NCBI RefSeq assembly: GCF_009738225.1
Contig: NZ_CP018187.1
Location: 72,501-136,500, forward strand
Reading direction: 5' to 3'
Source: Streptococcus salivarius
GTDB lineage: Bacteria > Bacillota > Bacilli > Lactobacillales > Streptococcaceae
Length of the DNA stretch: 64,000 bases
The notes under the pieces are model-generated. The model saw only the letters and a program-made list of their open reading frames with translations. It did not search any database and was not told where the DNA came from. Position 1 is the first letter of the stretch; the number at the start of each line of letters is the position of its first letter. A program made the translations under genes and the position numbers. Shown one piece after another: positions 30,719 through 62,910 of this stretch.

Positions 30719-30743
30719 TCAAAACCTTATTATACCAACGTTT
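30702..30743 (+). other. attL of element A in the rpsI 3' end
   Basis: The 18 bases 30702-30719 (AATTCTCAAAACGTTAAT) recur exactly at 39476-39493. Inside lies AAACGTT (30710-30716), facing AACGTTT (30737-30743), an inverted pair typical of tyrosine-recombinase core sites. In three other copies in this window the pair is spaced by 18 bases. Here it is 20. Confidence 0.8.
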
Positions 30744-30756
30744 ACAGACACTTTTT

Positions 30757-30777
30757 GGTGTCAGTTGGTGTTAATTA
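30757..30777. repeat. Left arm-type repeat of element A
   Basis: Two tandem half-units of the form GGTGTNAnTT (GGTGTCAGTT then GGTGTTAATT) lie between the core site and the integrase stop. The same motif pair in the order GGTGTTAATT, GGTGTCAATT is at 39349-39369 near the right end. Such paired arms usually bind the integrase N-terminal domain. Confidence 0.6.
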
Positions 30778-31824
30778 TAGTGATAAGTCGTTTAAGAGAC
30801 TTAAAGCATCGGCATCTTGCTGGTGCTTTTTTTCTGGCATTAATTCAAGATAATATTGCTGAGTTGTCAAAATTGAATTGTGTCCCAAACGTCTTGAAAT
30901 ATAATCCAGACTAATATCTTTTGAAAATAGAAAAGAAGCATGGGTATCACGTAAACCGTGAAATGTTGTTTTAGTTAGGTCAAGTTGTTTCAGTAAGCGT
31001 TGAAGTTGACCAGCTTGTCTAAATCCGTTCCAATCAAAAACATAATCTGTTTTAGTGTTAGCTAGATTTACTAGGATTTGATAGATATCTTTATTGATAG
31101 AAATATCACGCTTAGAATGTTTGGTTTTTAGTTGTGTATCATCGTTAGTTGGGCTAATTGAACGCCTAACTTTAATACCGTACTCAAAAATATCTTCTTT
31201 TTTGAGACCAAGTAATTCGCCACGTCTGGCACCAGTTTCAAGGGCTAGAGCTACTAATACATTAAATTCATCATCTTCTGCATGATTTAAGCAATACCGC
31301 CTTAATAGTTTAAATTCTGTTACTGATAGTGGGATATTGCGTTTAGGAAGTTCTTTCCCTTTTGATTTTAAGAGATGACCAAAGTCATTTGTAATTAAAC
31401 CACGAGCATAAGCATATTTTAATGAACCACGTATCTTCAAAACTAGCTCTTTTACAGTTTTCTTTGAGTGAGACTCAGCATATTTATCAATCTTTTTTTG
31501 CATGATAATATCATCAAGATGTTTGAGCTGAATTCCATCAAAAAGACTGTCGACAACTACAAGAGTACGCTTATAGTTGATGAAGGTTGCTTCACGGACA
31601 TCATTTTTCTTCACAGTTTCTACCCAGTTACGGTAAAAATCTGTAAATAGTGTAGAACGTTCAGCAATATTTTTACCACGTCCTTTTTCAAGCTCCATTT
31701 CTAAAGTCCAAAGTTCAGCGTCTTTTTTGATACTGAAAGTTTTAGTTTCTCGCTTGTATTTTCCTTTTTTGTAAAGTGAAACAGTTGCACGGTAAGAGTT
31801 GCCACGTTTAGTAATAGTTGCCAT
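30775..31824 (-). CDS. Tyrosine integrase of element A
   Basis: Site-specific recombinase that inserts and excises the element at rpsI. The 349 residues have an N-terminal AP2-like arm-binding domain (SYRATVSLYKKGKYKRETKTFS), a SAM-like core-binding domain (about 60-160) and the catalytic domain. The catalytic residues are R200 (ETGARRGELL), H289 and R292 (FHGLRDTHAS), H315 (RRLGH) and tyrosine 324 (TTQQYY). All are present, so it should be active. Its 3' end lies 56 bases from the attachment core, as usual for such elements. Confidence 0.94.
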   Translation of the reverse strand: MATITKRGNSYRATVSLYKKGKYKRETKTFSIKKDAELWTLEMELEKGRGKNIAERSTLFTDFYRNWVETVKKNDVREATFINYKRTLVVVDSLFDGIQLKHLDDIIMQKKIDKYAESHSKKTVKELVLKIRGSLKYAYARGLITNDFGHLLKSKGKELPKRNIPLSVTEFKLLRRYCLNHAEDDEFNVLVALALETGARRGELLGLKKEDIFEYGIKVRRSISPTNDDTQLKTKHSKRDISINKDIYQILVNLANTKTDYVFDWNGFRQAGQLQRLLKQLDLTKTTFHGLRDTHASFLFSKDISLDYISRRLGHNSILTTQQYYLELMPEKKHQQDADALSLLNDLSL

Positions 31825-39937: not shown

Positions 39938-40387
39938 ATGAGCACAATAGAATTTAATACTTATATCACAGATGCAGAATGGGAAGTCATGCGTGTAGTT
40001 TGGGCAAATGATCGAGTAACTAGTAAAAAAGTCATTTCCGTATTGCAAGAAAAAATGGACTGGACACAATCCACTATCAAAACGATCTTAGGTCGATTAG
40101 TTGGAAAAGGCGTACTAAATACAGTGCATGAAGGTAGAAAGTTTATTTACACTGCCAATATTGAAGAGACAGAAGCCGTAAGGGATTATGCAGAAGATAT
40201 TTTTAACCGTATTTGCAATAAGAAAGTCGGAAATGTAATAGGAAGCATCATTGAAGATCATGTTTTAAGCTTCGATGATATAGATCGACTAGAAAAAATA
40301 TTAGAGATGAAAAAATCTTTCGCAGTAGAAGAAGTGGATTGCAATTGTCCAGAAGGACAATGCGAATGTCATTTACATCATCATTAA
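39938..40387 (+). CDS. copY: CopY, copper-responsive repressor
   Basis: A 149-residue BlaI/CopY-type repressor. The N-terminal winged helix (ITDAEWEVMRVVWANDRVTSKKVISVLQEKMDWTQSTIKTILGRLVGKG) binds the cop boxes upstream. The C-terminal CNCPEGQCEC provides the CxCxxxxCxC site where Cu(I) displaces zinc, followed by a His-rich end. The ribosome binding site is AAGGAG. It is the first gene of a two-gene operon. Confidence 0.95.
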   Translation: MSTIEFNTYITDAEWEVMRVVWANDRVTSKKVISVLQEKMDWTQSTIKTILGRLVGKGVLNTVHEGRKFIYTANIEETEAVRDYAEDIFNRICNKKVGNVIGSIIEDHVLSFDDIDRLEKILEMKKSFAVEEVDCNCPEGQCECHLHHH

Positions 40388-40406
40388 GCATAAGGAGGAA
40401 TTTAAG

Positions 40407-44955: not shown

Positions 44956-45262
44956 AAACCAGGTCTTAAGAAAGCTCGTAAAGCTAGCCAGTTCTCTAAA
45001 CGTTAATTCGTTACTGGACAGCAGAGTACAAACGAAAACACTTTGCAACTTGCAAGGTGTTTTTTGTATGAGAATTGGCGGTGCGCAATTAGGATAGCTC
45101 TAGCGACTTTAGTCGCATAGAGATATGCTATGCATAGTTGCCCCAAGAAAATAAGCGAAGCGATATTTGATTGGATGGCAACCACTGCACTCAAAACGTT
45201 AATCAATACGATTATATCAACGTTTCAAGACATTCAAGAGTTATCTCTTGGATGTCTTTTTT
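44956..45262 (+). repeat. Junction module, copy 2, with rpsI tail
   Basis: The first 51 bases encode [16 protein letters not shown] and stop, the exact C-terminus of S9, but with codons different from the resident rpsI (for example AGCCAG for TCACAA). It continues TTCGTTACTGGACAG, a T-run hairpin (45035-45066) and the same stem-loops as copy 1, then the second core (45194-45203) with AACGTTT at 45219 and a terminator-like stem, GACATTCAAGAG/CTCTTGGATGTC. Confidence 0.88.
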
Positions 45263-45300: not shown

Positions 45301-46509
45301 CTAATTTTTAAGATTCCTAAATGCAATTTCACCAACAGTTTGATTTACTATATCTTTAGTATTAACATAAGTCTTTGTAATTTCTTTGTCACTATGAGTT
45401 AAGTCTTCAGAAATTACTTCAAGTGGAACTCCAGCTTGTTTTGCGAGTGTCGCACCAGTATGTCTTAGTTTGTGTGGGGAAGCTGGTGCTAGTTCAGAGT
45501 GCCTGCGTCTGACTGATTTCATTCTATAATTCAGATAATCTATATGGAGTGGTAAGTTAATATTGTTTGAACGATCATTATAGGTGAAAACAAACTGTTT
45601 TTGATTTTGTCGAAGACCAAATAGTTTAAGTTCTTCTTGTTGCTTCACTTTCCATTTTGCCAGTAAGCCCATCAATTCAACTGGAGCTTTAAAAATAGTC
45701 TTTTTATTGCCTTTTGTTGATTTGACATTACCAAAACGGTCTAGTGCTTGCTCAATAAGTATTTCTCCAGTAGAAAAATTAATGTGTTTCCATTGCAAAG
45801 CATAACTTTCTGATTTTCGGTCAGATAAGAAGAATGTCGTATAAAAGAGCGTGTAATCTTTTAGGTCTATTAGGCCATTTTCTAAATCTGTATCAAAAGC
45901 TAGTAGCCAAGATGTTAACTCCTCTTTATCTAGGGAAAGATCTTCCTCACGTTTGCTTTCTTTAAGGAGAATCTTTTTATTAGCTTTAATTCTACTAATT
46001 GTTTTTCGAAGTTTATTTGAAGGAATATAATCTAGTTCCTCAGCCCAATCAAATACGGAGTTAACATAGCTTCTAATCACTTTAAAATTAGCATAGCTAT
46101 TTGCTTTGGGAGTGAGTAGTGAAAGAATAAGTTGTTTATTATTATTTAGGTATTCAATGGAATATTTACCTAGAATAGGTAAGATATGTAGTCTGAAGAG
46201 GTTTTCTGTTTGAAAAACAGCTACCTTTGTAGGTGGTTTAATTGTAGTTGTGGTTTGACCTGCCTTGTAAGGTTCTAACCAAATTTGTTTATAAAAGTTC
46301 TCAAAAGTGATTTCTTCCTTTTTATCAACAGGAAGATTATTTCTTGCTTTTTCTATATTCACTGCAAATTTAAGTTCAGCTTCCCTAGCCTCCCTTTTTG
46401 TTTTAAAACGCTTTTCATAATATTGCCCCAGACCCAGTTTCCCTTGAATATCAGTGGGAACATAGAGTTTTAATTGATAGGTTCTATTTTTCGTTTTCTT
46501 AAAAGCCAT
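45301..46509 (-). CDS. Tyrosine integrase of element C
   Basis: A 402-residue recombinase, unlike the integrase of element A except in the catalytic core. It has an N-terminal arm-binding domain (NRTYQLKLYVPTDIQGKLG), SAM-like domain (about 66-165) and catalytic residues R231 (LSDRKSESYAL), H346 and R349 (SPHKLRHTGAT), H372 (LTHSD) and Y381 (ITKTYVN). The set is complete. Its stop codon is 76 bases from the AACGTTT core, placing it at the element end as expected. Confidence 0.92.
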   Translation of the reverse strand: MAFKKTKNRTYQLKLYVPTDIQGKLGLGQYYEKRFKTKREAREAELKFAVNIEKARNNLPVDKKEEITFENFYKQIWLEPYKAGQTTTTIKPPTKVAVFQTENLFRLHILPILGKYSIEYLNNNKQLILSLLTPKANSYANFKVIRSYVNSVFDWAEELDYIPSNKLRKTISRIKANKKILLKESKREEDLSLDKEELTSWLLAFDTDLENGLIDLKDYTLFYTTFFLSDRKSESYALQWKHINFSTGEILIEQALDRFGNVKSTKGNKKTIFKAPVELMGLLAKWKVKQQEELKLFGLRQNQKQFVFTYNDRSNNINLPLHIDYLNYRMKSVRRRHSELAPASPHKLRHTGATLAKQAGVPLEVISEDLTHSDKEITKTYVNTKDIVNQTVGEIAFRNLKN

Positions 46510-46845: not shown

Positions 46846-47988
46846 TTATTTTTTCTTTTGAACTGATAGCTGTTCTTTAAAAAGTTTATTCATTTTTTTC
46901 TGTCCCTCAGAAGAGTTGAGAGTATCTTTGTTGATTTCCCCTTTATAAATTTGTTCCATTAGAAGTAAGTATGCTTCACCTAAAGCAGTAGTGATAAGAC
47001 CAGCGGTTGTACCAGAAATAGCTCCACCAACACCGGTACCAATACCTGGGAAAAATTTCAATATATTAGAGACAATAGTTTTACCGATTAATGTAGCACT
47101 ACCAGATCCTAAAGTGGATGTTACGAAAGCTGTTAGGAAAGCTTTATTTATTTCGAGTCCAAATATTACAGTAATCGCACTAATCATAGCAACTTGAGTT
47201 GGCACTAGTAAAAATGCATCAGCAAAGGGGATTGGAGCGAAACCTTCTCCAAAACTTGCTGTTACCGCTGTTGCAATAGCAGCCCTAGCATGTTTTTTTT
47301 TTGCTTCTAGAGATACTTTTTGAATATTTTGTAGTGTATCTTGAAGCTCGGAAGGTAATACTTCAGACATTACATTTATTAAGGTATCCAGCCCAAAGGA
47401 TTTCGCAACATATTCTTCATCAAAATCCATGTCCTGAGCAAGAATTGGTACAACCTTACAAATATCAAGGTTTTCTTGTTCTACATGATTTTTCATTTCC
47501 AAAGCTTTTTTTCTTGGAACAGATTGTGTGAGTACCACGATTATTGGGACTTTGGAGTTTTTATTTTTTTCAGAGAACTCCTTTAGCCACTCTACCTCAG
47601 AACTATCAAAGGTACGGTTTGCTCCTACATTAATGCAGTACCAAATACAGTGGATTGTTTTGTTGATGTCATTAGAGGAGTAACCTTCGCTTATTAATTT
47701 TATTACTTCATCTTTTACGTTGTCTTGTTGGTCAGAAGAAAGTTCGAAACCGGGAGTGTCATAAATGGAGAGAGGATAGTCACTCTTAACAATTTTTCTG
47801 ATTTCTTGTGTTACTGGTCTACCTAGACCGGTATCAGCAAAGTCACCTCTAAACAAACTGTTAATGAGTGTACTTTTTCCTACCCCAGATTTACCAATAA
47901 CTATTATGTTAAGCTGTTTTAGATTATTTATTTTATCATTAATTGCATTAATACATTGTTGAGCAATACTATCTGTATCAATCTGCAT
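46846..47988 (-). CDS. P-loop GTPase with hydrophobic DUF697-like C-terminus
   Basis: 380 residues. The GTPase part has G1 GKSGVGKST (32-40), G3 DTPGFE (from D77) and a G4-position VVLTQS, which lacks the usual NKxD/TKxD aspartate. The second half holds Ala/Gly-rich helices (about 235-335), including GFAPIPFADAFLLVPTQVAMI, typical of DUF697-type membrane-associating regions. It belongs with Era/EngA-like membrane GTPases. The cellular role is unknown. A small membrane gene lies just upstream on the same strand. Confidence 0.8.
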   Translation of the reverse strand: MQIDTDSIAQQCINAINDKINNLKQLNIIVIGKSGVGKSTLINSLFRGDFADTGLGRPVTQEIRKIVKSDYPLSIYDTPGFELSSDQQDNVKDEVIKLISEGYSSNDINKTIHCIWYCINVGANRTFDSSEVEWLKEFSEKNKNSKVPIIVVLTQSVPRKKALEMKNHVEQENLDICKVVPILAQDMDFDEEYVAKSFGLDTLINVMSEVLPSELQDTLQNIQKVSLEAKKKHARAAIATAVTASFGEGFAPIPFADAFLLVPTQVAMISAITVIFGLEINKAFLTAFVTSTLGSGSATLIGKTIVSNILKFFPGIGTGVGGAISGTTAGLITTALGEAYLLLMEQIYKGEINKDTLNSSEGQKKMNKLFKEQLSVQKKK

Positions 47989-49989: not shown

Positions 49990-50757
49990 CTAGTCCGCTT
50001 TTAAAATAGTAGTGTACTGGCTAAATTCCTCTAAGTGTTGAGGGCTAATCTGGTTATCTGTAATGATGGTATCGAGTTGATCTAGATTATAGAAGTTAAA
50101 GAAATCGTATCGATCGAATTTAGTACTGTCTACTAATAAGAATTTTTCTACAGCATTGTTTAGGGCAAGTTGTTGAATCACACCTTCCTTGTCACTATAT
50201 GTAGCAATAGAATTATGGGTAACAGCATTTGCACTAACAAAAGCTTTGGCAAATCTCATTGCTTTTAAATTTGTCGAAGCCATTGAACCTACAAAAGCTC
50301 CAGTTACTTCTCTATATTCACCGCCAAGAAGCAATAAATCAATGGTTTCGCTATCATTTAGAATCAAGAACACAGGGAGACTATTTGTAATGACACGAAT
50401 TTTATAACCTTTACGACCTTTCAATTCTAATGCCAGTTGTTCAAGTGTAGTTCCGGGTCCAATAAAAATAGTATCGCCATCTTTGATTAAAGAGCAGGCT
50501 TTTTTAGCAATGTCAATTTTTTCTTTTGTATTTAGACTTTTCTTCTCGATATGTGTCTTTTCAAGTGGCTTTTTAGAGGAAAGCAATTGTGCACCACCAT
50601 GAGTACGTCTTAAAAGTCCATCAGCTTCTAGAGCATCAAGGTCTCTACGGGCTGTCATATCGGAAATATCTAGTTCATCTATTATTTCTTTTATGGTTAT
50701 GGTCCCGTCAATCTTTAACATATCTAAAATTTTTTCTAATCGTCGTTTTTTGTTCAT
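49990..50757 (-). CDS. lacR: LacR, DeoR-family repressor of the lac operon
   Basis: A 255-residue regulator. The N-terminal DeoR helix-turn-helix reads RLEKILDMLKIDGTITIKEIIDELDISDMTARRDLDALEADGLLRRTHGGA. The C-terminal sugar-phosphate sensor domain follows (GDTIFIGPGTTLEQLA, then LLLGGEY). It is divergent from lacA across a 480-base control region. In streptococci LacR is released by tagatose-6-phosphate. Confidence 0.92.
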   Translation of the reverse strand: MNKKRRLEKILDMLKIDGTITIKEIIDELDISDMTARRDLDALEADGLLRRTHGGAQLLSSKKPLEKTHIEKKSLNTKEKIDIAKKACSLIKDGDTIFIGPGTTLEQLALELKGRKGYKIRVITNSLPVFLILNDSETIDLLLLGGEYREVTGAFVGSMASTNLKAMRFAKAFVSANAVTHNSIATYSDKEGVIQQLALNNAVEKFLLVDSTKFDRYDFFNFYNLDQLDTIITDNQISPQHLEEFSQYTTILKAD

Positions 50758-50810
50758 ATGAAGACTCTTCTTTCATAAAGTAATTTTTTTCCAAAGATAA
50801 TTCTCTTTTA

Positions 50811-50873
50811 ATTGTATCATAAAAGACAATATTTTCAAGGCGAAACAAACAATTTCAAACAAAAAACAAACGT
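50811..50873 (-). promoter_or_regulatory. lacR promoter and operator-like repeats
   Basis: On the minus strand TTGAAA, 16 bases, then TACAAT with an upstream TGA. Further upstream (50843-50873) repeated AAACAAAC units match the repeated AACAAA tracts before the lacA promoter, as expected for DeoR-type repressor sites. Confidence 0.6.
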
Positions 50874-51064
50874 TAGATGATGAAATAAGAACAGAGGGTT
50901 GACGTATATTAACTTAGGTCAGATTTTGTATAAGACGAAAATAAGGTAGGACCTCTTAATCAGTAAATTATAGAAAGTAAAAGACTTTTGTAATACTTGA
51001 ATAGATATTTCACGTCCATTTTGTGATGGTTTAAATGAACAATAATTTAACGGTGTTATCTACT

Positions 51065-51169
51065 TTTAAAAAAGCAAACAAAAAAACAAACAAAAAATAA
51101 ACAAAAAGTGTTGCTTTTTGTTTAGATGTTTGGTATTATATAAACAAAGAAATGATGAAAACGTTATTT
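51065..51169 (+). promoter_or_regulatory. lac operon promoter, LacR-like repeats and cre-like site
   Basis: Repeated CAAACAAA/TAAACAAA units (51075-51106) precede TTGCTT (51111-51116), 17 bases, then TATTAT with upstream TGG (51131-51139). TGAAAACGTTATTT (51156-51169) matches 12 of 14 positions of a catabolite-response element just after the start point, fitting CcpA repression. Confidence 0.65.
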
Positions 51170-51237
51170 CGAACATTTTGCAAAATATTTTCTACTTCTA
51201 CGTAGCATTTCTTTCTAAAATTTAGGAGGTAGTCAAA

Positions 51238-51663
51238 ATGGCTATTGTTGTTGGTGCAGATCTCAAAGGTACGAGATTAAAAGATGTTGTGAAAAATTTT
51301 CTTGTAGAAGAAGGTTTTGAGGTAATTGATGTGACTAAGGACGGACAAGATTTTGTTGATGTTACCTTGGCAGTTGCCTCTGAAGTAAATAAAGATGAGC
51401 AAAACTTAGGTATTGTAATTGATGCTTATGGAGCTGGTCCATTCATGGTAGCAACTAAAATTAAAGGTATGGTTGCAGCAGAAGTTTCAGATGAACGCTC
51501 AGCTTATATGACACGTGGACATAACAATTCACGAATGATTACGGTTGGCGCTGAAATCGTCGGTGATGAGCTTGCTAAAAACATCGCTAAAGGTTTCGTC
51601 AATGGTAAATATGATGGCGGACGTCATCAAATCCGAGTAGATATGCTTAACAAGATGTGTTAA
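51238..51663 (+). CDS. lacA: Galactose-6-phosphate isomerase subunit LacA
   Basis: A 141-residue subunit of the LacAB isomerase (RpiB/LacA/LacB fold), which turns galactose-6-phosphate into tagatose-6-phosphate. It shows [20 protein letters not shown] at the start and [36 protein letters not shown] in the middle. Both subunits are needed to form the active site. AGGAGG precedes the ATG. First gene of the operon, 16 bases before lacB. Confidence 0.96.
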
Positions 51664-51679
51664 GAAAAGGAGTTAAGGA

Positions 51680-52195
51680 ATGAGAATCGCAATTGGATGT
51701 GACCACATTGTCACAGATGAAAAAATGGCAGTATCAGAATTCTTGAAATCAAAAGGACATGAGGTCCTTGATTTCGGGACATATGACCACGTACGTACTC
51801 ACTACCCTATCTATGGTAAAAAAGTCGGTGAAGCAGTAGTAAGTGGTCAAGCAGACTTGGGAGTATGTATCTGTGGTACAGGTGTTGGCATTAACAATGC
51901 AGTCAATAAAGTTCCAGGTGTTCGCTCAGCGTTGGTTCGTGATATGACATCAGCTATATATGCAAAAGAAGAGTTAAATGCGAATGTTATCGGTTTCGGT
52001 GGAATGATTACTGGTGGTCTTCTTATGAATGACATCATTGAAGCTTTCATTGAAGCAGAGTACAAGCCAACAGAAGAAAATAAAAAATTGATTGCAAAAA
52101 TCGAACACGTTGAAACTCATAATGCACATCAAGCAGATGAAGATTTCTTTACAGAATTCCTTGAAAAATGGGACCGTGGTGAGTATCACGACTAG
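51680..52195 (+). CDS. lacB: Galactose-6-phosphate isomerase subunit LacB
   Basis: A 171-residue partner of LacA. It begins [36 protein letters not shown] and contains the catalytic-cysteine stretch [29 protein letters not shown]. It follows lacA with AAGGAG as binding site. The usual next gene, lacC, is absent. A 123-base non-coding gap leads to lacD. Confidence 0.96.
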
Positions 52196-52318
52196 ATAAT
52201 AGATCTATAAATCTCATAATCAGATAAAATAATTAGTTGAAAATTTTTACGTATAAACTAGAGAAATTCATCTTGTAAAAGAACTTAGTAAGAAAAGTAT
52301 AAAAGAGGTATTTAAAAA

Positions 52319-53299
52319 ATGGTACTTACAGAACAGAAACGCAAGTATTTGGAAAAACTTTCAGACGAAAATGGTATTATCTCAGCTTTGGCATTTGACC
52401 AACGTGGTGCTTTGAAACGTTTGATGGCACAATATCAAGATGCAGAGCCAACTGTAGCTCAAATGGAAGAACTGAAGGTTTTGGTTGCTGATGAACTTAC
52501 AAAATATGCATCATCAATGTTGCTTGATCCTGAATACGGACTTCCAGCAACAAAAGCATTGGATAAAGAAGCTGGTCTTCTTCTTGCCTATGAAAAAACA
52601 GGTTATGATACATCAAGTACAAAACGTTTGCCTGACTGCTTGGATGTTTGGTCTGCAAAACGTATCAAAGAGCAAGGCGCTGATGCCGTTAAGTTCTTGC
52701 TTTACTATGATGTAGACAGCTCAGATGAACTTAACCAACAAAAACAAGCTTATATTGAACGTGTTGGTTCTGAATGTGTCGCTGAAGATATTCCTTTCTT
52801 CTTGGAAATCCTTGCTTATGATGAAGAAATTTCAGATGCAGGTTCTGTTGAATATGCAAAAGTGAAACCTCGCAAAGTCATTGAAGCGATGAAAGTTTTC
52901 TCTGATCCACGCTTTAACATTGATGTTCTTAAAGTAGAAGTACCAGTTAACGTTAAATATGTTGAAGGTTTTGCTGATGGTGAAGTGGTTTACAGTAAAG
53001 CTGAAGCTGCTGACTTCTTTAAAGCACAAGAAGAAGCAACTAACCTTCCATACATCTATCTAAGTGCAGGTGTGTCTGCTAAATTGTTCCAAGAAACATT
53101 GCAATTTGCTCACGACTCAGGTGCCAAGTTTAATGGTGTGCTTTGTGGACGTGCTACTTGGGCAGGGTCTGTAGAACCTTACATCAAAGAAGGTGAAAAA
53201 GCAGCACGTGAGTGGTTGCGTACTACTGGATTCGAAAATATTGATGAACTTAACAAAGTTCTTGTTAAAACAGCTAGTCCATGGACTGATAAAGTATAG
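52319..53299 (+). CDS. lacD: Tagatose-1,6-bisphosphate aldolase
   Basis: A 326-residue class I (Schiff-base) aldolase that splits tagatose-1,6-bisphosphate into dihydroxyacetone phosphate and glyceraldehyde-3-phosphate. It has the LacD start [46 protein letters not shown], and the [17 protein letters not shown] stretch with the likely Schiff-base lysine. [13 protein letters not shown] is near the end. Its substrate requires a tagatose-6-phosphate kinase, which this operon lacks. Confidence 0.96.
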
Positions 53300-53326
53300 T
53301 AAAAACATAAAACGGAGGATATTGTT

Positions 53327-53644
53327 ATGAACAGAGAAGAGATGACTCTTTTAGGGTTTGAAATTGTTGCCTACGCTGGCGACGCTCGCTCTAAACTTTT
53401 GGAAGCGCTTAAAGCAGCTGAAAATGGTGACTTCGCTAAGGCAGATAATCTTGTAGTAGAAGCAGGAACTTGCATTGCAGAGGCTCACAATTCTCAGACA
53501 GCTATGTTGGCTCGAGAAGCTTCTGGGGAAGAACTTCCATACAGTGTTACTATGATGCATGGTCAGGATCACTTGATGACTACGGTCTTGTTAAAAGATG
53601 TGATTTATCACCTTATCGAACTTTATAAAAGAGGAGCAAAATAA
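53327..53644 (+). CDS. lacF: Lactose PTS enzyme IIA
   Basis: A 105-residue soluble phosphocarrier of the lactose/cellobiose PTS family. It is helical and trimeric in homologues. The phospho-histidine lies in [13 protein letters not shown] and the conserved [23 protein letters not shown] is at the N-terminus. It passes phosphate from HPr to LacE. GGAGG precedes the ATG, and its stop codon overlaps the lacE start by one base. Confidence 0.95.
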
Positions 53645-55350
53645 TGCATAAACTCATTGAACTTATTGAGAAGGGGAAACCATTCTTTGAGAAAATCTCT
53701 CGAAACATCTATCTCCGTGCTATTCGTGATGGATTTATCGCTGGTATGCCAGTCATCCTTTTCTCATCAATCTTTATCTTGATTGCCTATGTGCCAAATG
53801 CTTGGGGCTTTCACTGGTCTAAAGGTGTTGAAACTTTCTTGATGACTCCTTATAGCTATTCAATGGGTATCCTAGCATTCTTTGTTGGTGGTACTACCGC
53901 TAAAGCTTTGACGGACTCAATGAACCGTGACCTACCTGCGACTAATCAAATTAACTTCTTGTCTACAATGCTAGCGTCTATGGTTGGTTTCCTTTTGATG
54001 GCAGCTGAACCTGCTAAAGAAGGAGGCTTCTTGACAGCCTTCATGGGTACAAAAGGTCTCTTGACAGCATTTATCGCAGCCTTTGTGACAGTTAATGTTT
54101 ATAAAGTCTGTGTAAAAAATAATGTTACCATTCGTATGCCTGAAGAGGTTCCACCAAATATCTCTCAAGTATTTAAGGACTTGATTCCGTTCACTGTCTC
54201 AGTTGTTCTCCTATATGGACTTGAACTCCTTGTTAAGGGAACTCTTGGTGTAACTGTTGCAGAATCAATTGGTACCCTTCTTGCTCCTCTTTTCTCAGCT
54301 GCAGATGGTTACCTTGGAATTACTCTTATCTTTGGTGCTTATGCCTTCTTCTGGTTTGTTGGTATCCACGGTCCTTCAATTGTCGAACCAGCAATCGCTG
54401 CTATCACTTATGCCAATATCGATGCCAACTTGCATCTTATCCAAGCTGGACAACATGCAGATAAAGTTATCACTTCTGGTACTCAAATGTTTATTGTTAC
54501 CATGGGTGGTACAGGAGCGACATTGATTGTTCCATTCTTGTTCATGTGGATTTGTAAATCAGAACGTAACCGTGCCATCGGACGTGCCTCAGTTGTTCCA
54601 ACATTCTTTGGGGTTAACGAGCCAATCTTATTTGGTGCACCAATCGTATTGAATCCGATTTTCTTTGTACCGTTCATTTTAGCTCCGATTGTCAACGTTT
54701 GGATCTTTAAATTCTTTGTTGACACATTGAACATGAACTCATTCTCTGCCAACCTTCCATGGGTTACTCCTGGTCCGTTGGGAATTGTACTCGGTACTAA
54801 CTTCCAAGTTCTATCATTTATCTTAGCCGGACTCTTGGTAGTTGTTGATACTATCATTTATTACCCATTTGTTAAGGTATACGATGAACAAATTCTTGAA
54901 GAAGAACGTTCTGGTAAAACAAACGATGCTCTTAAAGAAAAAGTAGCTGCAAACTTCAATACTGCTAAAGCAGATGCCGTTCTTGGAAAAGCAGGCGTTG
55001 CTAAAGAAGATGTAGCAGCAAACAATAATATCACAAAAGAAACTAATGTCCTTGTTCTTTGTGCAGGTGGAGGTACAAGTGGCTTGCTTGCCAATGCCTT
55101 GAACAAAGCAGCAGCAGAATACAATGTTCCAGTCAAAGCGGCAGCGGGTGGTTACGGTGCTCACCGTGAAATGTTGCCAGAGTTTGACTTGGTAATCTTG
55201 GCTCCACAGGTCGCTTCAAACTTCGATGATATGAAGGCTGAAACAGACAAATTGGGCATTAAACTTGCAAAAACTGAAGGAGCTCAATATATCAAATTGA
55301 CACGTGATGGACAAGGTGCTCTTGCATTTGTTCAACAACAGTTTGATTAA
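53644..55350 (+). CDS. lacE: Lactose PTS enzyme IICB
   Basis: A 568-residue permease that imports and phosphorylates lactose. The IIC part (about 1-430) has eight to ten membrane spans and the conserved [24 protein letters not shown] flexible linker precedes IIB (about 465-568), whose phospho-cysteine is in [18 protein letters not shown]. The product is lactose-6-phosphate, the substrate of LacG downstream. Confidence 0.96.
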
Positions 55351-55366
55351 TAAATTTGTAAAAGTT

Positions 55367-56893
<1,527 letters not shown>

Positions 56894-56907
56894 TATCACC
56901 TGAGAAT

Positions 56908-57165
56908 GTAATAATTTGTTATCCGATTTTTAGATCAGGCTTTGAAAAGGTATATATTATTAATTTCGAAGATTGTCCTATAATTCCTGAGCTTGAAGCT
57001 ACCTCACTACTAAAATGTAGTAACTGGTGTGTTTCACCTGGAAAAGAGTGGATTTGCCATTCTGATTTAGCATTATCCGAATTTGAATGGGAAGTTTTAC
57101 AATTACTCGATGTAGCAATATGTGAGACTGTTCACTTCGAGGTAGATTATTTGCCTTTCCAATAA
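56908..57165 (+). pseudogene. Start-less ORF remnant between lacG and lacX
   Basis: An open frame of about 85 codons reads FEKVYIINFEDCPIIPELEA, then SPGKEWICHSDLALSEFEW, and ends LPFQ-stop, but has no ATG, GTG or TTG start in frame. It looks like the tail of a small acidic protein of unknown family truncated at its 5' end. Confidence 0.45.
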
Positions 57166-57185
57166 CAAAAAGAAAGGAATTAACT

Positions 57186-58085
57186 GTGACTATCGAATTA
57201 AAAAACGAGTATCTTACGGTTCAGTTTAAAACACTTGGTGGTCAACTGACTTCGATTAAAGACAAAGATGGGTTAGAATATCTCTGGCAAGCTGATCCAG
57301 AGTATTGGAATGGACAGGCACCAATTCTATTTCCTATCTGTGGTAGTTTACGTAATGATTGGGCTATTTATAGACCTCAAGAAAGACCCTTTTTTACAGG
57401 TCTAATTCGTAGACATGGTTTTGTTCGAAAAGAAGAATTTACTCTTGAAGAAGTTAATGAAAATAGCGTGACTTTCAGCATTAAACCAAATGCTGAGATG
57501 CTTGATAATTACCTTTATCGGTTTGAACTAAGAGTTGTTTATACCTTAAATGGGAAATCCATTAGAACCGAGTTTCAGGTAACGAACTTGGAAACTGAAA
57601 AAACGATGCCTTACTTCATTGGAGCCCATCCAGCATTCAATTGTCCTTTAGTAGAAGGCGAAAAGTATGAGGACTATTCTCTTGAATTTAGTGAGGTTGA
57701 GTCTTGTTCGATACCAAAGAGTTTCCCTGAGACAGGGTTATTAGATTTACAAGATCGGACGCCATTTTTGGAAAACCAAAAGTCTCTTGATTTGGATTAC
57801 TCACTTTTTTCTCATGACGCCATTACACTTGACCGACTGAAATCTCGCAGCGTGACACTTCGCTCGAGAAAGTCTGGTAAAGGTCTTCGAGTTGATTTTG
57901 ATGATTTTCCAAACTTGATTCTGTGGTCTACAGCTAATAAAAGTCCATTCATTGCTTTGGAACCTTGGAGTGGTCTCTCCACTTCACTTGAAGAAGGTAA
58001 TTTCTTAGAAGATAAAAGACAGGTAACGAAAATTTCACCTCAAGAAACTTCTAGAAAAACCTATGATATTACTATCCTTAATTAA
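57186..58085 (+). CDS. lacX: LacX, aldose 1-epimerase-family protein
   Basis: A 299-residue galactose-mutarotase-like protein. It begins with TIELKNEYLTVQFKTLGGQLTSIKDKDGLEYLWQ, and has RRHGFVRKEEF with a catalytic-type His and FIGAHPAFNCPL with another. It is the usual last gene of streptococcal lac operons. Its true substrate has not been settled. The start is a GTG preceded by AAAGGA. A terminator follows. Confidence 0.9.
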   Translation: MTIELKNEYLTVQFKTLGGQLTSIKDKDGLEYLWQADPEYWNGQAPILFPICGSLRNDWAIYRPQERPFFTGLIRRHGFVRKEEFTLEEVNENSVTFSIKPNAEMLDNYLYRFELRVVYTLNGKSIRTEFQVTNLETEKTMPYFIGAHPAFNCPLVEGEKYEDYSLEFSEVESCSIPKSFPETGLLDLQDRTPFLENQKSLDLDYSLFSHDAITLDRLKSRSVTLRSRKSGKGLRVDFDDFPNLILWSTANKSPFIALEPWSGLSTSLEEGNFLEDKRQVTKISPQETSRKTYDITILN

Positions 58086-58493: not shown

Positions 58494-58534
58494 TTGACAA
58501 CTGTTTTTAAGAATTATACTATTGAATTGAATAG
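58494..58534 (+). promoter_or_regulatory. Promoter and operator of the ArsR-rhodanese gene
   Basis: TTGACA (58494-58499), 15 bases, TATACT (58515-58520). CTATTGAATTGAATAG (58519-58534) overlaps the -10 box and contains the ATTGAAT half-site found three times as full palindromes before trxA, suggesting autoregulation. Confidence 0.65.
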
Positions 58535-58550: not shown

Positions 58551-59219
58551 ATGCAAGAGACAATGATTGATTACAAACAAAATATTTACCAAGAGCTATC
58601 TCGCTTAACAAAGGGGCTAGGAAGTGAGAAGCGTCTTGATATTTTAAATATATTATCACAGGGACCAAAGACAGTTGAGGGAATTGCGCATGCGACGGGT
58701 CTCTCTGTTGCCAATACTTCGCGCCACCTTCAGGTTTTAAAAGAAAGTCACTTGGTGGTGACGAGTCGAAATGGTAATTTTATCCGTTATAGCTTGGCTT
58801 CTGAAAAGGTTGTCCAGTTAGTCCTTCTGTTATTTGCCGTCGGTGAAGAACAGTTAGCAGAAGTCAGAGCGATTGAGTCAGACTATGATGAGGCAGCTGG
58901 TGTTCCTCAGATTGAGCTCGCTAATGCAATTGAATTAGCAGCTAAGACAGATGCTCTCCTACTTGATTTAAGGCCTGTTGAGGAGTATGAGGCAGGGCAC
59001 TTGCCAAAAGCTTGTAATTTACCAATCGATGAGTTTGATCAAAAAAAAGCTCAGCTTCCCAAAGAGAAGACCATCATTGTTTATTGTCGCGGGCGCCAAT
59101 GTGGCTATGCTAACCTAGCAGCACAGGATTTACAGAGTTTAGGCTACAGTATCTATAGTCTCAATCGCAGTTTTGCTGATTGGAAGTGGGGTGCATCCTC
59201 TCGTTCAGAACTTGACTAA
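58551..59219 (+). CDS. ArsR-type regulator fused to a rhodanese domain
   Basis: 222 residues. The N-terminal winged helix (about 15-95) contains SVANTSRHLQVLKESHLVVTSRNGNFIRYSL and no cysteine. The rhodanese domain (about 120-215) keeps the catalytic loop CRGRQCGYA with C179, plus DLRPVEEYEAGHLPKACNLP. Such fusions are thought to sense or handle sulfane sulfur or oxidants through the rhodanese cysteine. It precedes the thioredoxin operon and shares its half-site motif, so it is the likely regulator. AAGGAG precedes the ATG. Confidence 0.88.
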   Translation: MQETMIDYKQNIYQELSRLTKGLGSEKRLDILNILSQGPKTVEGIAHATGLSVANTSRHLQVLKESHLVVTSRNGNFIRYSLASEKVVQLVLLLFAVGEEQLAEVRAIESDYDEAAGVPQIELANAIELAAKTDALLLDLRPVEEYEAGHLPKACNLPIDEFDQKKAQLPKEKTIIVYCRGRQCGYANLAAQDLQSLGYSIYSLNRSFADWKWGASSRSELD

Positions 59220-59269
59220 GGTGTATTCCTTAGTCTTTTCTTATAACCGGAGACTCGTGAGCAAAATCG

Positions 59270-59496
59270 TTGCAAAATAGATTTAGTGTGCTATAATTCA
59301 ATTATTCAATAAAAAAGTTGAATTTCTTTTTTACTCAACCTATTCAATAATTTCATTGAATTGCATCTTTGAAATACTTCTTATTTAGTATCTCAAAGAA
59401 ACTAAGTGATACAAATTGGAGTTTTAGAAGGGCTAAGTTAACCTTTTTGAAATTCATTCTTTTATTCTTATGCTATTCAATTATATAATTGAATAG
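59270..59496 (+). promoter_or_regulatory. trxA promoter with three ATTCAAT palindromes
   Basis: TTGCAA (59270-59275), 16 bases, TATAAT with upstream TGC (59289-59297). Three inverted repeats of identical geometry, ATTCAAT-N6-ATTGAAT, follow at 59304-59323 (one mismatch), 59342-59361 and 59475-59494. An extra ATTCAAT half-site overlaps the -10 box. They fill most of the leader before trxA. Confidence 0.82.
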
Positions 59497-59525
59497 AAGC
59501 GATTTATTTTAGATAGGAGTTTTTT

Positions 59526-59840
59526 ATGACGACACAACTAACAACCGAAACATTTGCGAAATCTATCCAAAATGGGGTAAGTTTTATCGATTTTGGGGCG
59601 CAGTGGTGCCCACCTTGTCGGATGATGGAGCCGGTAGTGGAAGAACTTTCACAGGAATTTGACGGAAAAGTAACGATTGCTCAGGTGGATGTGGACCAAT
59701 CACAAGATCTGGCCAATCTCTTTGGCATTCGTTCTATCCCAACAATGGTGATTTTTAAAGATGGCAAACCCGTTGATGCTCTTGTTGGTGTTCATCCTAA
59801 ACAAACATTGATAGAAAAAATCCAAGCACAGTTATCATGA
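59526..59840 (+). CDS. trxA: Thioredoxin
   Basis: A 104-residue thioredoxin with active site WCPPC (C28, C31) instead of the common WCGPC. The proline shifts redox properties in homologues. The cis-proline loop IRSIPTMVIF and FDGKVTIAQVDVDQ are normal. AGGAG precedes the ATG. It is followed after eight bases by trxB, so the element carries its own complete thioredoxin system. Confidence 0.95.
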   Translation: MTTQLTTETFAKSIQNGVSFIDFGAQWCPPCRMMEPVVEELSQEFDGKVTIAQVDVDQSQDLANLFGIRSIPTMVIFKDGKPVDALVGVHPKQTLIEKIQAQLS

Positions 59841-59848
59841 GGTGATTT

Positions 59849-60769
59849 ATGTATGATGCAATTATTGTAGGTTCAGGACCTGCAGGGTACACAGCTGGCA
59901 TTTATTTAAGTCGAGCTGGTTTGAAAAATCGATTGATCACAGGCTATTCTGAGGGTGGTCAATTAACCACCACAACCCTCGTAGAAAATTATCCAGGTTT
60001 TGAAAACGGGATTGATGGCAATGAATTAGTCCAAACAATGCGCCGCCAAGCAGAACAGTTTGGCACCGAAATGACCTTTGGATTTGTTCAAAAAATTGAA
60101 GGCGAATCGTCTCCTTTCGAGGTACATCTGGATAATGGTGAAATCATTGATACCAAGGCCGTTATTATCGCAACAGGCTCTAGCGCTAAATACCTAGGAA
60201 TTGAAGGCGAAGAAGAGGCCATCGGAAAAGGTGTCAGCGCTTGTGCGACCTGTGATGCTTTCTTCTATAAAGAGCGTGAAATCCTTGTAGTTGGCGGGGG
60301 TGATGTCGCTATGGAAGAAGCCCTCTATTTGACACGCTTTGCATCGAAAGTGACCGTTATCCACCGCCGCAATGAGTTACGCGCATCTGATATTATGGCC
60401 AAACGGGCTCAGGCAAATGATAAAATTCATTGGATGTTAAATTACACGCCTGTCAAAGTTACATCTAATCTGATGGGAATGACTGGTTTGGATGTTCGTA
60501 ATAATGAAACAGGTGATATTGAGTACATTCAGGCTGACGGTCTCTTTGTGGCCATTGGTCATCAGCCAAACACCGATTTTCTTGATGGAAAATTAGCATT
60601 GGATGATAAAGGCTATATTCAAACACAGGCAGGAACAGCAAAGACCTCTGTTGCAGGTATTTTTGCAGCTGGTGATGTGCAAGATCCAAAATACCAACAA
60701 GCCATTACTGCAGCAGGTAGCGGTGCCATTGCTGCCCTAGATACATTGGCCTATATTGATAACCTATGA
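59849..60769 (+). CDS. trxB: Thioredoxin reductase
   Basis: A 306-residue low-molecular-weight thioredoxin reductase. The FAD motif is VGSGPAGYTAGIY, the redox-active pair is ACATCDAFF (about C134 and C137), the NADPH motif is VVGGGDVAMEEALY, and the C-terminal FAD motif ends GIFAAGDVQD. It should reduce the TrxA encoded upstream. Its stop codon overlaps the next start by four bases. Confidence 0.95.
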   Translation: MYDAIIVGSGPAGYTAGIYLSRAGLKNRLITGYSEGGQLTTTTLVENYPGFENGIDGNELVQTMRRQAEQFGTEMTFGFVQKIEGESSPFEVHLDNGEIIDTKAVIIATGSSAKYLGIEGEEEAIGKGVSACATCDAFFYKEREILVVGGGDVAMEEALYLTRFASKVTVIHRRNELRASDIMAKRAQANDKIHWMLNYTPVKVTSNLMGMTGLDVRNNETGDIEYIQADGLFVAIGHQPNTDFLDGKLALDDKGYIQTQAGTAKTSVAGIFAAGDVQDPKYQQAITAAGSGAIAALDTLAYIDNL

Positions 60770-61035
60770 TGAAATCAGTCACGTCTAGTATCGAATTAGA
60801 AGAACTGTTAGCCAAACATCAAAATTTAGCTCTTCTTGTTTCAGGAAATCAATGCAGTCTATCGTCTCTTGGGCAAAAAGAACTCATAGACATGGCTGAA
60901 CGAGAGCACTTGGTGCTTTACCAAGCAGATATTTTTCAAGTGCCCCGTCTTATTTCTTTATTTGGCATTCAGCCTACCCTGACGAGTTTATTAGTCTTTA
61001 AAAAGGGTCAATTGGTTGATAAGAAAGAGGTTTAA
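60766..61035 (+). CDS. Thioredoxin-like protein with a single cysteine
   Basis: 89 residues with thioredoxin-fold pattern: NLALLVSGNQCSLSSLGQ takes the place of the active site, and FGIQPTLTSLLVFKKGQLV contains the cis-proline loop. Only the first of the two active-site cysteines remains (C30), so it cannot work as a dithiol reductase. A monothiol or binding role is possible. It overlaps trxB by four bases and ends just before an S14 gene. Confidence 0.7.
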   Translation: MMKSVTSSIELEELLAKHQNLALLVSGNQCSLSSLGQKELIDMAEREHLVLYQADIFQVPRLISLFGIQPTLTSLLVFKKGQLVDKKEV

Positions 61036-61215
61036 ATGGCAAGAAAAGCTTTGATACAAAGGAAAAAGAAGGCCTATCCGGTTCAAGAATACTCACGCTG
61101 TTTGGCATGCGGCCGCCCGCATTCGGTTTACCGCAAGTTTAAACTTTGTCGGATTTGTTTACGCCAGCAAGTTTACCAAGGTGTCATTCCTGGGTTGAAA
61201 AAAGCTTCTTGGTAG
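61036..61215 (+). CDS. Ribosomal protein S14, zinc (type Z) paralogue
   Basis: A 59-residue S14 with four zinc ligands C22-LA-C25 and C38-RI-C41 in [25 protein letters not shown], ending IPGLKKASW as all type Z S14 proteins do. The housekeeping rpsN belongs to the spc ribosomal operon, which is not in this window, so this should be a second copy. It starts immediately after the stop codon of the thioredoxin-like gene. A ribosomal protein inside a redox operon on a mobile element is unusual. Confidence 0.9.
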
Positions 61216-61234
61216 TGGAAAGAAAGGAAGAAAT

Positions 61235-61885
61235 ATGGAAATTAGTTACTGGTCAGATATTGCCTGTCCATTTTGTTACATTGGTGCTAGTCGGATGAAG
61301 CGTGCTATGGCAGCTGTTGGTTTAAACCCGGAAGATTTGACAATGAAAGCTTACCAGCTAAATCCCAATGCGCCTTTAGAAACAAGTGAAACCATGCTCA
61401 CAGAGTTTGCTGCCAGTCACGGTATGACCACTGAGCAAGCTAAAGCTCAGTTTGCGCACATGGAAAGCATGGGAAATGAAGAAGGGCTTCGTATTGATAT
61501 GGCGGGGATTATCCCAACCAACACCTTTTCAGCTCACCGTCTTATTAAATGGTCGCAGAAGTATTTAGATAAAAAAGATCATCAAAATTTCATTATGGCC
61601 TTGTACTATCTTTACTTTGAAGAACATGCCAATATTGCGGATCATTCTGTGTTACTAGCTGTTATCAGTGAGTTCGCTCTACCACAAGAAGAGGCAGCGC
61701 AGGTTCTTGCTGGCGATGCGTTTGCTGACGAGGTCAAACGCGATATCTTAGAAGCCAATCAATCAGGCGTTCAAGGTGCACCTTTCTTTATTCTGAACAA
61801 TAAGTATGGCATTTCAGGTGCTCAGCCTTATGAATACATGTTAGCGGTATTAAAACAAATTCAAGCAGAGGAAGGAGCACAATAA
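61235..61885 (+). CDS. DsbA-family (FrnE-like) oxidoreductase
   Basis: A 216-residue cytoplasmic-type DsbA-fold protein without signal peptide. The redox motif CPFC (C11, C14) lies in ISYWSDIACPFCYIG, and the conserved NTFSAHRLIKW and the cis-proline loop VQGAPFFILNNKYGISGAQP identify the FrnE/2-hydroxychromene-isomerase-like branch. AAGGAAG precedes the ATG. FrnE relatives act in oxidative-stress or cadmium tolerance. The partner here is unknown. Confidence 0.88.
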   Translation: MEISYWSDIACPFCYIGASRMKRAMAAVGLNPEDLTMKAYQLNPNAPLETSETMLTEFAASHGMTTEQAKAQFAHMESMGNEEGLRIDMAGIIPTNTFSAHRLIKWSQKYLDKKDHQNFIMALYYLYFEEHANIADHSVLLAVISEFALPQEEAAQVLAGDAFADEVKRDILEANQSGVQGAPFFILNNKYGISGAQPYEYMLAVLKQIQAEEGAQ

Positions 61886-61886
61886 A

Positions 61887-62042
61887 ATGATAGATACCCC
61901 TTTTCAACTACTAGACAGCAATTCAGAAGAGACAGGTTTAGTTTGTGGGATTGATGGCTGCAGCATAGAGCCCTCAACACAGCCGTTAGAAAAAAGCAAA
62001 AAAGCAGTCATTAGGAGGGCAGAATGGAAAAACAAAGGGTAG
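61887..62042 (+). CDS. Micro-protein with CxxxxC motif, 51 aa
   Basis: Starts one base after the DsbA-like stop codon with AAGGAG upstream. It reads IDTPFQLLDSNSEETGLVCGIDGCSIEPS and ends in a basic stretch (SKKAVIRRAEWKNKG). C20-GIDG-C25 could bind a metal or form a disulfide. It overlaps the next gene by 19 bases in another frame. Unknown family. Confidence 0.6.
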   Translation: MIDTPFQLLDSNSEETGLVCGIDGCSIEPSTQPLEKSKKAVIRRAEWKNKG

Positions 62043-62587
62043 AAGCCTTGTCAGATGCTATATTGGCCATTATTGTCACAATTATGGCCTTGGAGTTACA
62101 GTTACCTAAGGAATTGACCGTAGTAGGACTTAGAAGCATGCTACCCATGCTTTTTATCTACATTACTAGTTTTTTGCAAATCATGGCAGTCTGGCTATAT
62201 TATCATGAACTCTACAAATTAGTAAATCATGTCAGCTTTCGTTTATTTGGAGCCAATAGTTTTTGGCTTTTAACAGCTAGTTTTGTTCCCTTAGCGACTC
62301 GAGGGATTGGACAGCATTCCGCTAATTTTGCCTTTCTCCTGTTTTACCTCATCGTTCTTGCCCTTTGGGATGTAGCTTGGATAATCATGACAGCAATGGT
62401 GATTAAGACGAGTCAAAGACCGTTATCAGCTGAAGAAAAAAAGATACCTTATCGGTGGGCACTATTATATGGATTGCAGCTAGTGATCATATTATTAGTT
62501 GGTTATCTTTTTCCAAATCTCATTCCTATTGCCCCGCTACTGATGATTGTTAATGTTATCTATGGTTTTTTAAGCAACAAATCTTGA
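62024..62587 (+). CDS. TMEM175-like potassium channel (DUF1211)
   Basis: 187 residues with five to six membrane spans. The signature at the start of span 1, RVEALSDAILAIIVTIMALEL, matches the (F/L)SDA motif of bacterial TMEM175 channels, tetrameric K+ channels. ANSFWLLTASFVPLATR is in the middle. AGGAGG precedes the ATG. Last gene of the redox operon and of element C. A truncated relative lies at 44443. Confidence 0.85.
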   Translation: MEKQRVEALSDAILAIIVTIMALELQLPKELTVVGLRSMLPMLFIYITSFLQIMAVWLYYHELYKLVNHVSFRLFGANSFWLLTASFVPLATRGIGQHSANFAFLLFYLIVLALWDVAWIIMTAMVIKTSQRPLSAEEKKIPYRWALLYGLQLVIILLVGYLFPNLIPIAPLLMIVNVIYGFLSNKS

Positions 62588-62626: not shown

Positions 62627-62910
62627 AAACCAGGTCTTAAGAAAGCTCGTAAAGCTAGCCAGTTCTCTAAACGTTAATTCGTTACTGGACAGCAGAGTAC
62701 AAACGAAAACACTTTGCAACTTGCAAGGTGTTTTTTTGTATGAGAATTGGCGGTGCGCAATTAGGATAGCTCTAGCGACTTTAGTCGCATAGAGATATGC
62801 TATGCATAGTTGCCCCAAGAAAACAAGCGAAGCGATGTTTGATTGGATGGCAACCACTGCACTCAAAACGTTAATCGATACGATTATATCAACGTTTCAA
62901 AGCACTCAAG
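62627..62910 (+). repeat. Junction module, copy 3, with rpsI tail
   Basis: The same 51-bp S9 C-terminal coding tail as copy 2 (62627-62677, identical), then the module with its T-run hairpin (62707-62737) and stem-loops. The second core is at 62866-62875 with inverted partner AACGTTT at 62891-62897. After 62910 it diverges from copies 1 and 2 and loses the terminator-like stem. Confidence 0.88.

Follow-up and report, generated by a model that had tools for sequence, protein, structure and literature searches.

Why should an extra gene for a ribosomal protein lie among the enzymes of a thiol-redox operon? The question is raised by a locus of Streptococcus salivarius, in a window of 64,000 nucleotides (contig NZ_CP018187.1, positions 72,501 to 136,500 of the forward strand; positions given below count from the first letter of this window). 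A sequence-only reading had described eight genes at 58551-62587 as a mobile thiol-redox operon that includes an additional gene for ribosomal protein S14. All eight open reading frames (ORFs) sit at these coordinates, profile searches with Pfam and NCBIfam agreed with the family calls made for them, and the families encoded bear out the thiol-redox content. The explanation that we prefer, with a probability of roughly 45%, is an inducible thiol-repair operon for disulfide or sulfane-sulfur stress that also resupplies zinc-binding S14. The genes are as follows:

58551..59219, plus strand: arsR, a regulator with an ArsR helix-turn-helix (HTH) domain and a rhodanese domain (PF01022, PF00581) and with cysteines (Cys) 155, 179 and 184
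59526..59840, plus strand: trxA, a thioredoxin with a WCPPC site (TIGR01068 above cut-off)
59849..60769, plus strand: trxB, a thioredoxin reductase (TIGR01292 above cut-off)
60766..61035, plus strand: trx1C, a one-Cys protein of 89 amino acids (aa) with a predicted thioredoxin (Trx) fold, NQCS replacing CxxC
61036..61215, plus strand: type-Z ribosomal protein S14, 59 aa, with four zinc-ligand Cys and in a clade of its own
61235..61885, plus strand: FrnE/DsbA-family protein with a CPFC site (Cys 11, 14) and without a C-terminal CX4C tail
61887..62042, plus strand: 51-aa CX4C protein (CGIDGC), read as the detached redox tail of FrnE
62024..62587, plus strand: TMEM175-family membrane protein (PF06736), accessory

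From trxA to TMEM175 the genes form a tight operon, with successive gaps of 8, -4, 0, 19, 1 and -19 base pairs (bp), and because the stop codon of trx1C abuts the start codon of S14, the latter looks translationally coupled to trx1C. The idea of a single packed unit holds for this part and not for arsR, which looks like a separate transcription unit since 306 bp and a terminator-like hairpin precede trxA; arsR is probably its own transcript. The gene order of the window recurs in two relatives (G009 and G105) and, in diverged form and without a TMEM175 match at the locus, in S. halotolerans (G558), and the arrangement is therefore not due to chance. In G009 the TMEM175 reading frame is broken into two. 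A second TrxB-like gene (38-43% identity) is present in each of the eight Streptococcus genomes that have the operon or a relative of it.

The control region was mapped by its promoter-like boxes, a terminator-like site and a recurrent palindrome, which we call the operator:

58494..58522, plus strand: promoter-like TTGACA-17-TACTAT before arsR, overlapped and followed by the half-operator-like ATTGAATTGAAT
59214..59235, plus strand: terminator-like hairpin 3' of arsR
59270..59297, plus strand: promoter-like TTGCAA-16-TATAAT, followed by operator 1
59304..59323, plus strand: operator 1, ATTCAATAAAAAAGTTGAAT
59342..59361, plus strand: operator 2, ATTCAATAATTTCATTGAAT
59447..59474, plus strand: promoter-like TTGAAA-16-TATGCT, abutting operator 3
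59475..59494, plus strand: operator 3, ATTCAATTATATAATTGAAT

Promoter-like boxes are common in the region (17 found, with 10.5 expected from shuffles), so that the evidence for these promoters is their position beside the operators and not their number; terminator-like sites numbered 7, with 3.3 expected. The operator pattern ATTCAAY-N6-RTTGAAT has three copies in the window, all of them in the arsR-trxA spacer (shuffle mean 0.00), and 17 copies in the eight Streptococcus genomes, again all between arsR and trxA, while the reversed control pattern gave no match in the eight genomes. A wider ArsR regulon was considered and rejected, no operator lying outside this spacer in the eight genomes at zero mismatches. 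By this measure the ArsR-rhodanese protein looks like a dedicated regulator of the operon, with a predicted regulon of one operon at zero mismatches, and the 20-bp operator makes that prediction an exact one. In S. marmotae (G165) only 22 residues of arsR were matched, yet both operators are kept, lying between the arsR remnant and trxA.

How the regulator senses stress is suggested by its conserved residues. In an alignment of 11 ArsR sequences (eight from Streptococcus, the window included, and three from family f9 of the same order), Cys 179 and Cys 184, which lie in the rhodanese loop CRG[RHK]xC, are invariant in 11/11, and the HTH part holds no invariant Cys. Since this pair is the only invariant one, sensing is likely to take place through the rhodanese domain, which scores 61.5 bits. 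BigR and SqrR, persulfide repressors of the ArsR family, sense through Cys of the HTH domain. The window protein shares their ArsR fold, and a context of sulfur stress is plausible for it, but its Cys pair lies in the fused rhodanese domain and no Cys is conserved in the HTH; with 36.3 bits against the NF040642 cut-off of 155 it was rejected as a member of the BigR/SqrR type. Identity with TsoR (NF045707) was rejected as well, at 51.8 bits and below the equivalog cut-off of 115.

A response to general cytosolic disulfide stress of the allicin or diamide type, or to cadmium, would differ from the preferred explanation in the inducer alone: sulfane sulfur would play no part, and the rhodanese domain would be a plain dithiol switch. 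Pseudomonas allicin islands carry trx, dsbA/frnE-like and K+ efflux (kefC) genes, and insertions in each of these raise sensitivity (PMC7119367), and in Deinococcus radiodurans mutation of frnE causes sensitivity to cadmium and diamide (PMC8945050), both of which fit such a response. We nevertheless consider it doubtful, because an intact rhodanese loop, with two Cys invariant in every sequence and a domain score of this size, exceeds what a bare dithiol switch would need. The allicin islands resemble the window in their horizontally spread thioredoxin, DsbA/FrnE-like, repressor and K+ transport genes, as far as the available text of PMC7119367 describes them; they differ in having TetR and KefC where the window has ArsR-rhodanese and a TMEM175-family protein. 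No ahpD, oye or osmC is found by Pfam among the eight window genes, and S14 and a FrnE split into two products belong to the window operon only.

S14 is the member that sets the operon apart. It belongs to type Z (NF005974, 94.9 bits, cut-off 77), and its four Cys (22, 25, 38 and 41), kept in 9/9 full-length operon-type copies, rule out a zinc-free alternative S14 of the RpsN.2 type. Recent duplication of the host gene could likewise be dismissed, with 58-61% identity to streptococcal S14 among the matches listed and a separate clade: in a tree of 61 columns, of which we use only the main split, nine operon-type S14 separate from 26 housekeeping S14 at 100/98. Housekeeping S14 is also present in the relatives G009 and G105. 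The operon type has 59 aa, as against 61 in the housekeeping protein. We compared it with 92 housekeeping sequences, namely the non-operon S14 of P0157-P0268 that have 61 aa and end in SW, leaving out P0151, P0155, P0204 and P0242, whose ends are truncated or odd. At L23, A24, Q44, Q45 and V50 the operon-type consensus occurs in less than 5% of the housekeeping proteins; L23 is common to all nine copies, and the operon type has CLAC where the usual zinc knuckle reads CERC. Such changes might alter the head of the 30S subunit so that translation differs, or make the zinc site resistant to oxidation, and together with the well-supported split they would suit a stress-specialised ribosome. They could also reflect the origin of the gene in an unusual donor, however, and the zinc ligands are unchanged; we regard a specialised ribosome as improbable.

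Between the window and S. halotolerans the S14 protein is 80% identical, with 30.0 of 38.2 synonymous and 17.0 of 138.8 nonsynonymous sites changed; we give these two proportions (pS and pN) and no ratio because synonymous divergence (dS) is saturated. The comparison indicates that operon S14 is under long-lasting purifying selection. Outside the zinc ligands, the family-invariant residues R21, R27, F35, R39, G49, G53, S58 and W59 are kept in all nine operon-type copies. A mere zinc binder would have no need of these, which speaks against a zinc buffer, that is, a small four-Cys protein that binds zinc freed by thiol oxidation or stores it. The constancy of the four Cys would suit such a buffer, as would the zinc-limitation response that sulfide stress gives in Staphylococcus aureus, but that response induces the zinc-free S14 instead (PMC5480029), and we think a buffer very unlikely.

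Is S14 then a regular member of the operon? Among 284 Streptococcus genomes trx1C was found in seven, and S14 is open in three of these (G009, G105, G558) and broken in the other four (G583, G151, G054, G165). In G151, G054 and G165 S14 has decayed and trx1C, FrnE and CX4C are open; in G583 trx1C and S14 are both broken, and FrnE was not found there. S. pantholopis (G584) has neither trx1C nor S14 between trxB and frnE. The loci of G151, G054 and G165 (L126, L127 and L128) have an additional gene, for a luciferase-like monooxygenase (PF00296 in L126), with the CX4C ORF on one side of it and the TMEM175 gene on the other. A search of 197 Streptococcus genomes for operon-type S14 gave two (97-98%; G009 and G105), both inside the operon, and S14 beside unrelated genes, which that reading had named as evidence against itself, was not seen in the relatives. 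The open copy of G558 and the four broken ones also adjoin trx1C, but they were found via trx1C and do not count as a test of linkage. No operon-type S14 was seen away from a trx1C (itself broken in G583).

The ArsR-rhodanese protein occurs at E <= 1e-20 in 24 of 395 Lactobacillales genomes, and we inspected the neighbourhoods in 20 of the 24, 18 of them outside Streptococcus. Relatives of trxA, trxB or frnE are present in 15 of the 20 neighbourhoods and S14 in none (tblastn, E <= 1e-2), from which the core appears to be ArsR-rhodanese with varying subsets of Trx, TrxB, FrnE and CX4C. S14 thus does adjoin the redox genes, as the sequence-only reading had it, but is not an obligatory member. 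Among loci with genomic context, Streptococcus was the only genus to show trx1C and S14; the relatives P0035 and P0021 are known as proteins only.

This pattern can be turned into an argument that S14 is a hitchhiker, captured once from another Firmicute between trx1C and frnE, expressed and harmless but without a redox role and now eroding by drift, in what is otherwise an ordinary Trx/FrnE thiol-stress operon. The decay of S14 beside open enzyme genes, its decay together with trx1C in G583, its absence from the 20 related neighbourhoods and from S. pantholopis, and the changes that several copies carry at family-invariant residues would all follow. A useless S14, however, should not have about 122 of 139 nonsynonymous sites unchanged when 30 of 38 synonymous sites differ, nor should it retain its four Cys in every full-length copy, and an ill-fitting extra S14 would be expected to compete with that of the host and to be purged. 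We therefore find a passive S14 unlikely, though deserving of weight. Since purifying selection marks the open copies while others are decayed or absent, S14 is best described, from these sequences, as a real but dispensable member of the operon.

The repair operon that we prefer could work as follows. At rest, ArsR-rhodanese would bind the ATTCAA/TTGAAT palindromes just past the -10 boxes and block the genes from trxA to TMEM175. Polysulfide, hypothiocyanous acid (HOSCN) or hypochlorous acid (HOCl) would load or cross-link C179 and C184 and so release the repressor. TrxB and TrxA would reduce proteins and persulfides, and FrnE, with the CX4C tail acting in trans, would reduce or isomerise protein disulfides. 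The zinc thiolates of existing S14 would be targets of the oxidants, and operon S14 would be a fresh, zinc-loaded supply from which 30S subunits are built or refitted while oxidant-hit S14 is damaged. Where resupply brings no benefit, the S14 gene would decay and the enzymes would stay. In a redox proteome of Mycobacterium smegmatis under sodium hypochlorite (NaOCl), the available table lists Cys27 of type-Z S14 with 19.6, 41.5 and 60.1 (PMC5430705), which we read as the percentage of oxidation in the control, the increase and the percentage in treated cells.

Several points weigh against this explanation. The running text of PMC5430705, in the part available, does not name S14 where it deals with zinc-ribbon targets; NaOCl induces the zinc-free rpsN2 in M. 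smegmatis according to the same source, and sulfide induces zinc-free rpsN2 in S. aureus (PMC5480029). Because the known stress answers induce zinc-free rpsN2, zinc scarcity is not what a zinc-keeping S14 should answer. To the broken copies in four of seven genomes and the lack of S14 in the 20 neighbourhoods come signs of erosion in the full-length copies: G26D is found in three of the nine, among them the open copy of G009, P28S in two and P52L in three, at residues that are invariant in 92/92 housekeeping S14, and the four sequences left out of the comparison also look decayed. Operon S14, having the same oxidisable Cys, should be no more oxidant-proof than that of the host, for which reason resupply during recovery is a better wording than resistance. 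Finally, we infer both the inducer (reactive sulfur or oxidants), from the rhodanese domain, and the role of S14 in the stress response.

A bolder form of the idea, which we put forward only tentatively and think rather unlikely, is that the mobile, repressor-controlled operon refits ribosomes in thiol or reactive-sulfur stress, operon S14 replacing housekeeping S14 in the 30S subunit and TrxAB, the split FrnE and the one-Cys Trx keeping it reduced and zinc-loaded. If true, the zinc-free ribosomal-protein switch would have a counterpart that retains zinc, and the elements spreading this counterpart would themselves have a ribosomal-protein gene as their integration site. The operon may enable cells to refit their ribosomes after damage by oxidants or reactive sulfur, and its S14 makes it possible to test cleanly whether a damaged ribosomal protein is exchanged.

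Alternative, zinc-free ribosomal proteins are familiar as substitutes when zinc is scarce, and in the sigma-R regulon of Streptomyces a thiol-stress factor drives trxBA and rpmE (L31). That regulon is an earlier example of a zinc-type ribosomal protein being controlled by thiol stress, but there a sigma factor acts on a dispersed regulon, whereas in the window a repressor is paired with a single operon. RpsN.2 of the AdcR regulon, as presented in the available text of PMC12707111, is likewise a second, regulated S14 gene in streptococci; it is zinc-free and answers zinc scarcity, whereas operon S14 has four Cys and lies behind palindromes linked to ArsR-rhodanese. Among the literature matches listed, no title or abstract describes the gene set of the operon, and none reports thiol-repair enzymes accompanied by a zinc-keeping S14 that is dedicated and regulated. 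The Trx system, FrnE, ArsR-rhodanese and the rpsI element (described below) are known parts; their combination, the S14 and the split FrnE appear to be new.

The CX4C micro-protein bears directly on the last of these. The FrnE body is recognised by PF01323 (E 4.7e-30) and by structures of the family, with 3gl5 (SCO1869) as the top match and D. radiodurans FrnE also found (5cnw, E 1.3e-28, and 5cp1); rows of TAL effectors among the matches were set aside, no stretch of them passing alone. This body has two Cys only, and the CX4C stands in the next ORF instead (VCGIDGCSI). Many FrnE proteins, though not all members, end in a CXXXXC tail, and in crystals of D. radiodurans FrnE a molecule has its tail at a second molecule's active site; the tail was proposed to regenerate that site (PMC8945050). 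A fused CX4C tail is present in 14 of the 120 homologues of the window FrnE listed (of 729). In the loci scanned, a separate CX4C ORF follows 15 of 18 FrnE matches; two of the others are standalone copies with the tail fused, and in the last one (L171) the CX4C ORF precedes arsR. Streptococcus (f1) and family f9, both of the Lactobacillales, are the groups in which the separate form was seen. The micro-protein noted from the sequence alone is a real ORF, and the comparison identifies it as the detached redox tail of FrnE, which we infer to act on FrnE in trans.

With D. radiodurans FrnE the window protein has in common a DsbA-like fold, a CPxC site and a CX4C tail, the features given in the available text of that work; in the window the tail is a separate 51-aa product and the FrnE body stops before it. 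A literature search for FrnE with "CX4C" found nothing, PMC8945050 spelling the motif CXXXXC. The split FrnE is a conserved arrangement in two Lactobacillales families and is open to assay with purified proteins. The standalone FrnE with the fused tail (LSCGPEGCRI) belong to two Streptococcus genomes (L183, 2722-3432; L184, 7073-7783), and in L183 this gene and the split FrnE of the operon are about 8 kb apart.

For trx1C neither Pfam nor NCBIfam gave a match at E <= 0.1. An AlphaFold2 model built on a nine-row alignment, from which the frameshifted P0017 was excluded, has a predicted local distance difference test score (pLDDT) of 84.6, and a Foldseek search of the PDB with this model returned thioredoxins with a best E of 5.8e-06; there were 162 matches at E <= 0.001, and thioredoxins make up most of the 50 listed. 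The model therefore indicates a thioredoxin fold, and it is on the model that the assignment rests, since the matches of a sequence profile in the PDB were all weak or to repeat proteins. The canonical CxxC is absent, and NQCS, with its one Cys, is found in 9/9 rows; in the broken trx1C of G583 the motif reads NQFS. Four proteins (P0025-P0027 and P0013) are chimeras of TrxA and trx1C, joined near an LFGI stretch common to both (sequences of P0013 and P0025 inspected), which suggests recombination between the two Trx-fold genes.

The mobility proposed in the sequence-only reading is supported in the window, where the operon is cargo between direct repeats of the 3' end of rpsI:

62627..62678, plus strand: direct repeat of the rpsI 3' end, right element end
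30668-30719: repeat copy in rpsI itself (PF00380)
44956-45007: further repeat copy, with a partial one at 39476
45301..46509, minus strand: tyrosine integrase (PF00589), left end of the operon-carrying element

The operon is the last cargo ahead of the right-hand repeat. A second integrase lies at 30775-31824, and the region also holds Rep_OBD and Rep_trans (PF02486) genes. From these features the operon appears, in this one case, to sit on a mobile chromosomal island. In G009 it adjoins rpsI (PF00380), from which a 105-aa remnant of an integrase (PF00589) separates it, and has an rpsI-type repeat after TMEM175; in S. halotolerans no rpsI was seen by eye among the ORFs inspected around the operon. 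Elements integrated at rpsI are known in group B streptococci, among them IMESag-rpsI, which the available text of PMC5090054 says to carry no obvious cargo. The likeness is one of site and genes, with insertion at the rpsI 3' end and, in the window, a tyrosine integrase beside direct repeats and a Rep_trans-family gene; the window element differs in carrying sugar-utilisation genes and the redox/S14 operon.

Carriage of the streptococcal version on plasmids or viruses found no support: trx1C matched 0 of 72,556 plasmid records, and no relative of it was confirmed in IMG/VR. A nucleotide search of plasmids matched 122 records, each over less than 80% of the query; in the rows inspected (20 best plus 40 spread of the 122) the matching pieces belonged to trxB, to a single rpsN, to FrnE of lactic-acid bacteria (short stretches) and to the rpsI repeat. 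The 52-base repeat at 62627-62678 matches short stretches of many Enterococcus faecium plasmids at 88-91%, with no annotated feature beneath, and is possibly an attachment-like site there. FrnE/DsbA-family genes also occur on plasmids of Lactiplantibacillus, Pediococcus and Leuconostoc. Over a short stretch these are 82% identical to the FrnE of the window, and related FrnE sets may therefore be mobile in these food lactic-acid bacteria too. The 90%-clusters nearest to the window proteins hold 777 member sequences for trx1C (P0001), 1875 for FrnE (P0030) and 184 for S14 (P0150), from sources marked ena and lgn; their sizes suggest that the operon, rare in species-level genomes, is common in some sampled communities.

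As a whole, 30668-62678 looks like tandem accretion at the rpsI 3' end, the repeats cutting it into three stretches, two of which start with an integrase of their own (30775-31824 and 45301-46509). The neighbouring stretch contains a BlaI/CopY-family repressor (PF03965) followed by a His-rich P-type ATPase of 726 aa (PF00122) at 39938-42587, likely a metal-transport cargo. Within the operon-carrying element, a GTPase-like ORF (MMR_HSR1, DUF697; 46849-47988) lies near the integrase and Rep_trans genes, and 49990-58085 holds a lactose/tagatose-type set, carried as cargo alongside the redox operon: a DeoR-family regulator, a LacAB-type isomerase, a LacD-type aldolase, phosphotransferase system (PTS) components EIIC and EIIB, a glycosyl hydrolase of family 1 and an aldose epimerase. 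Elsewhere in the window, two neighbouring minus-strand ORFs (16275-17102 and 17667-18494) share 72% DNA identity and have, by eye, the look of a duplicated carboxypeptidase-type gene.

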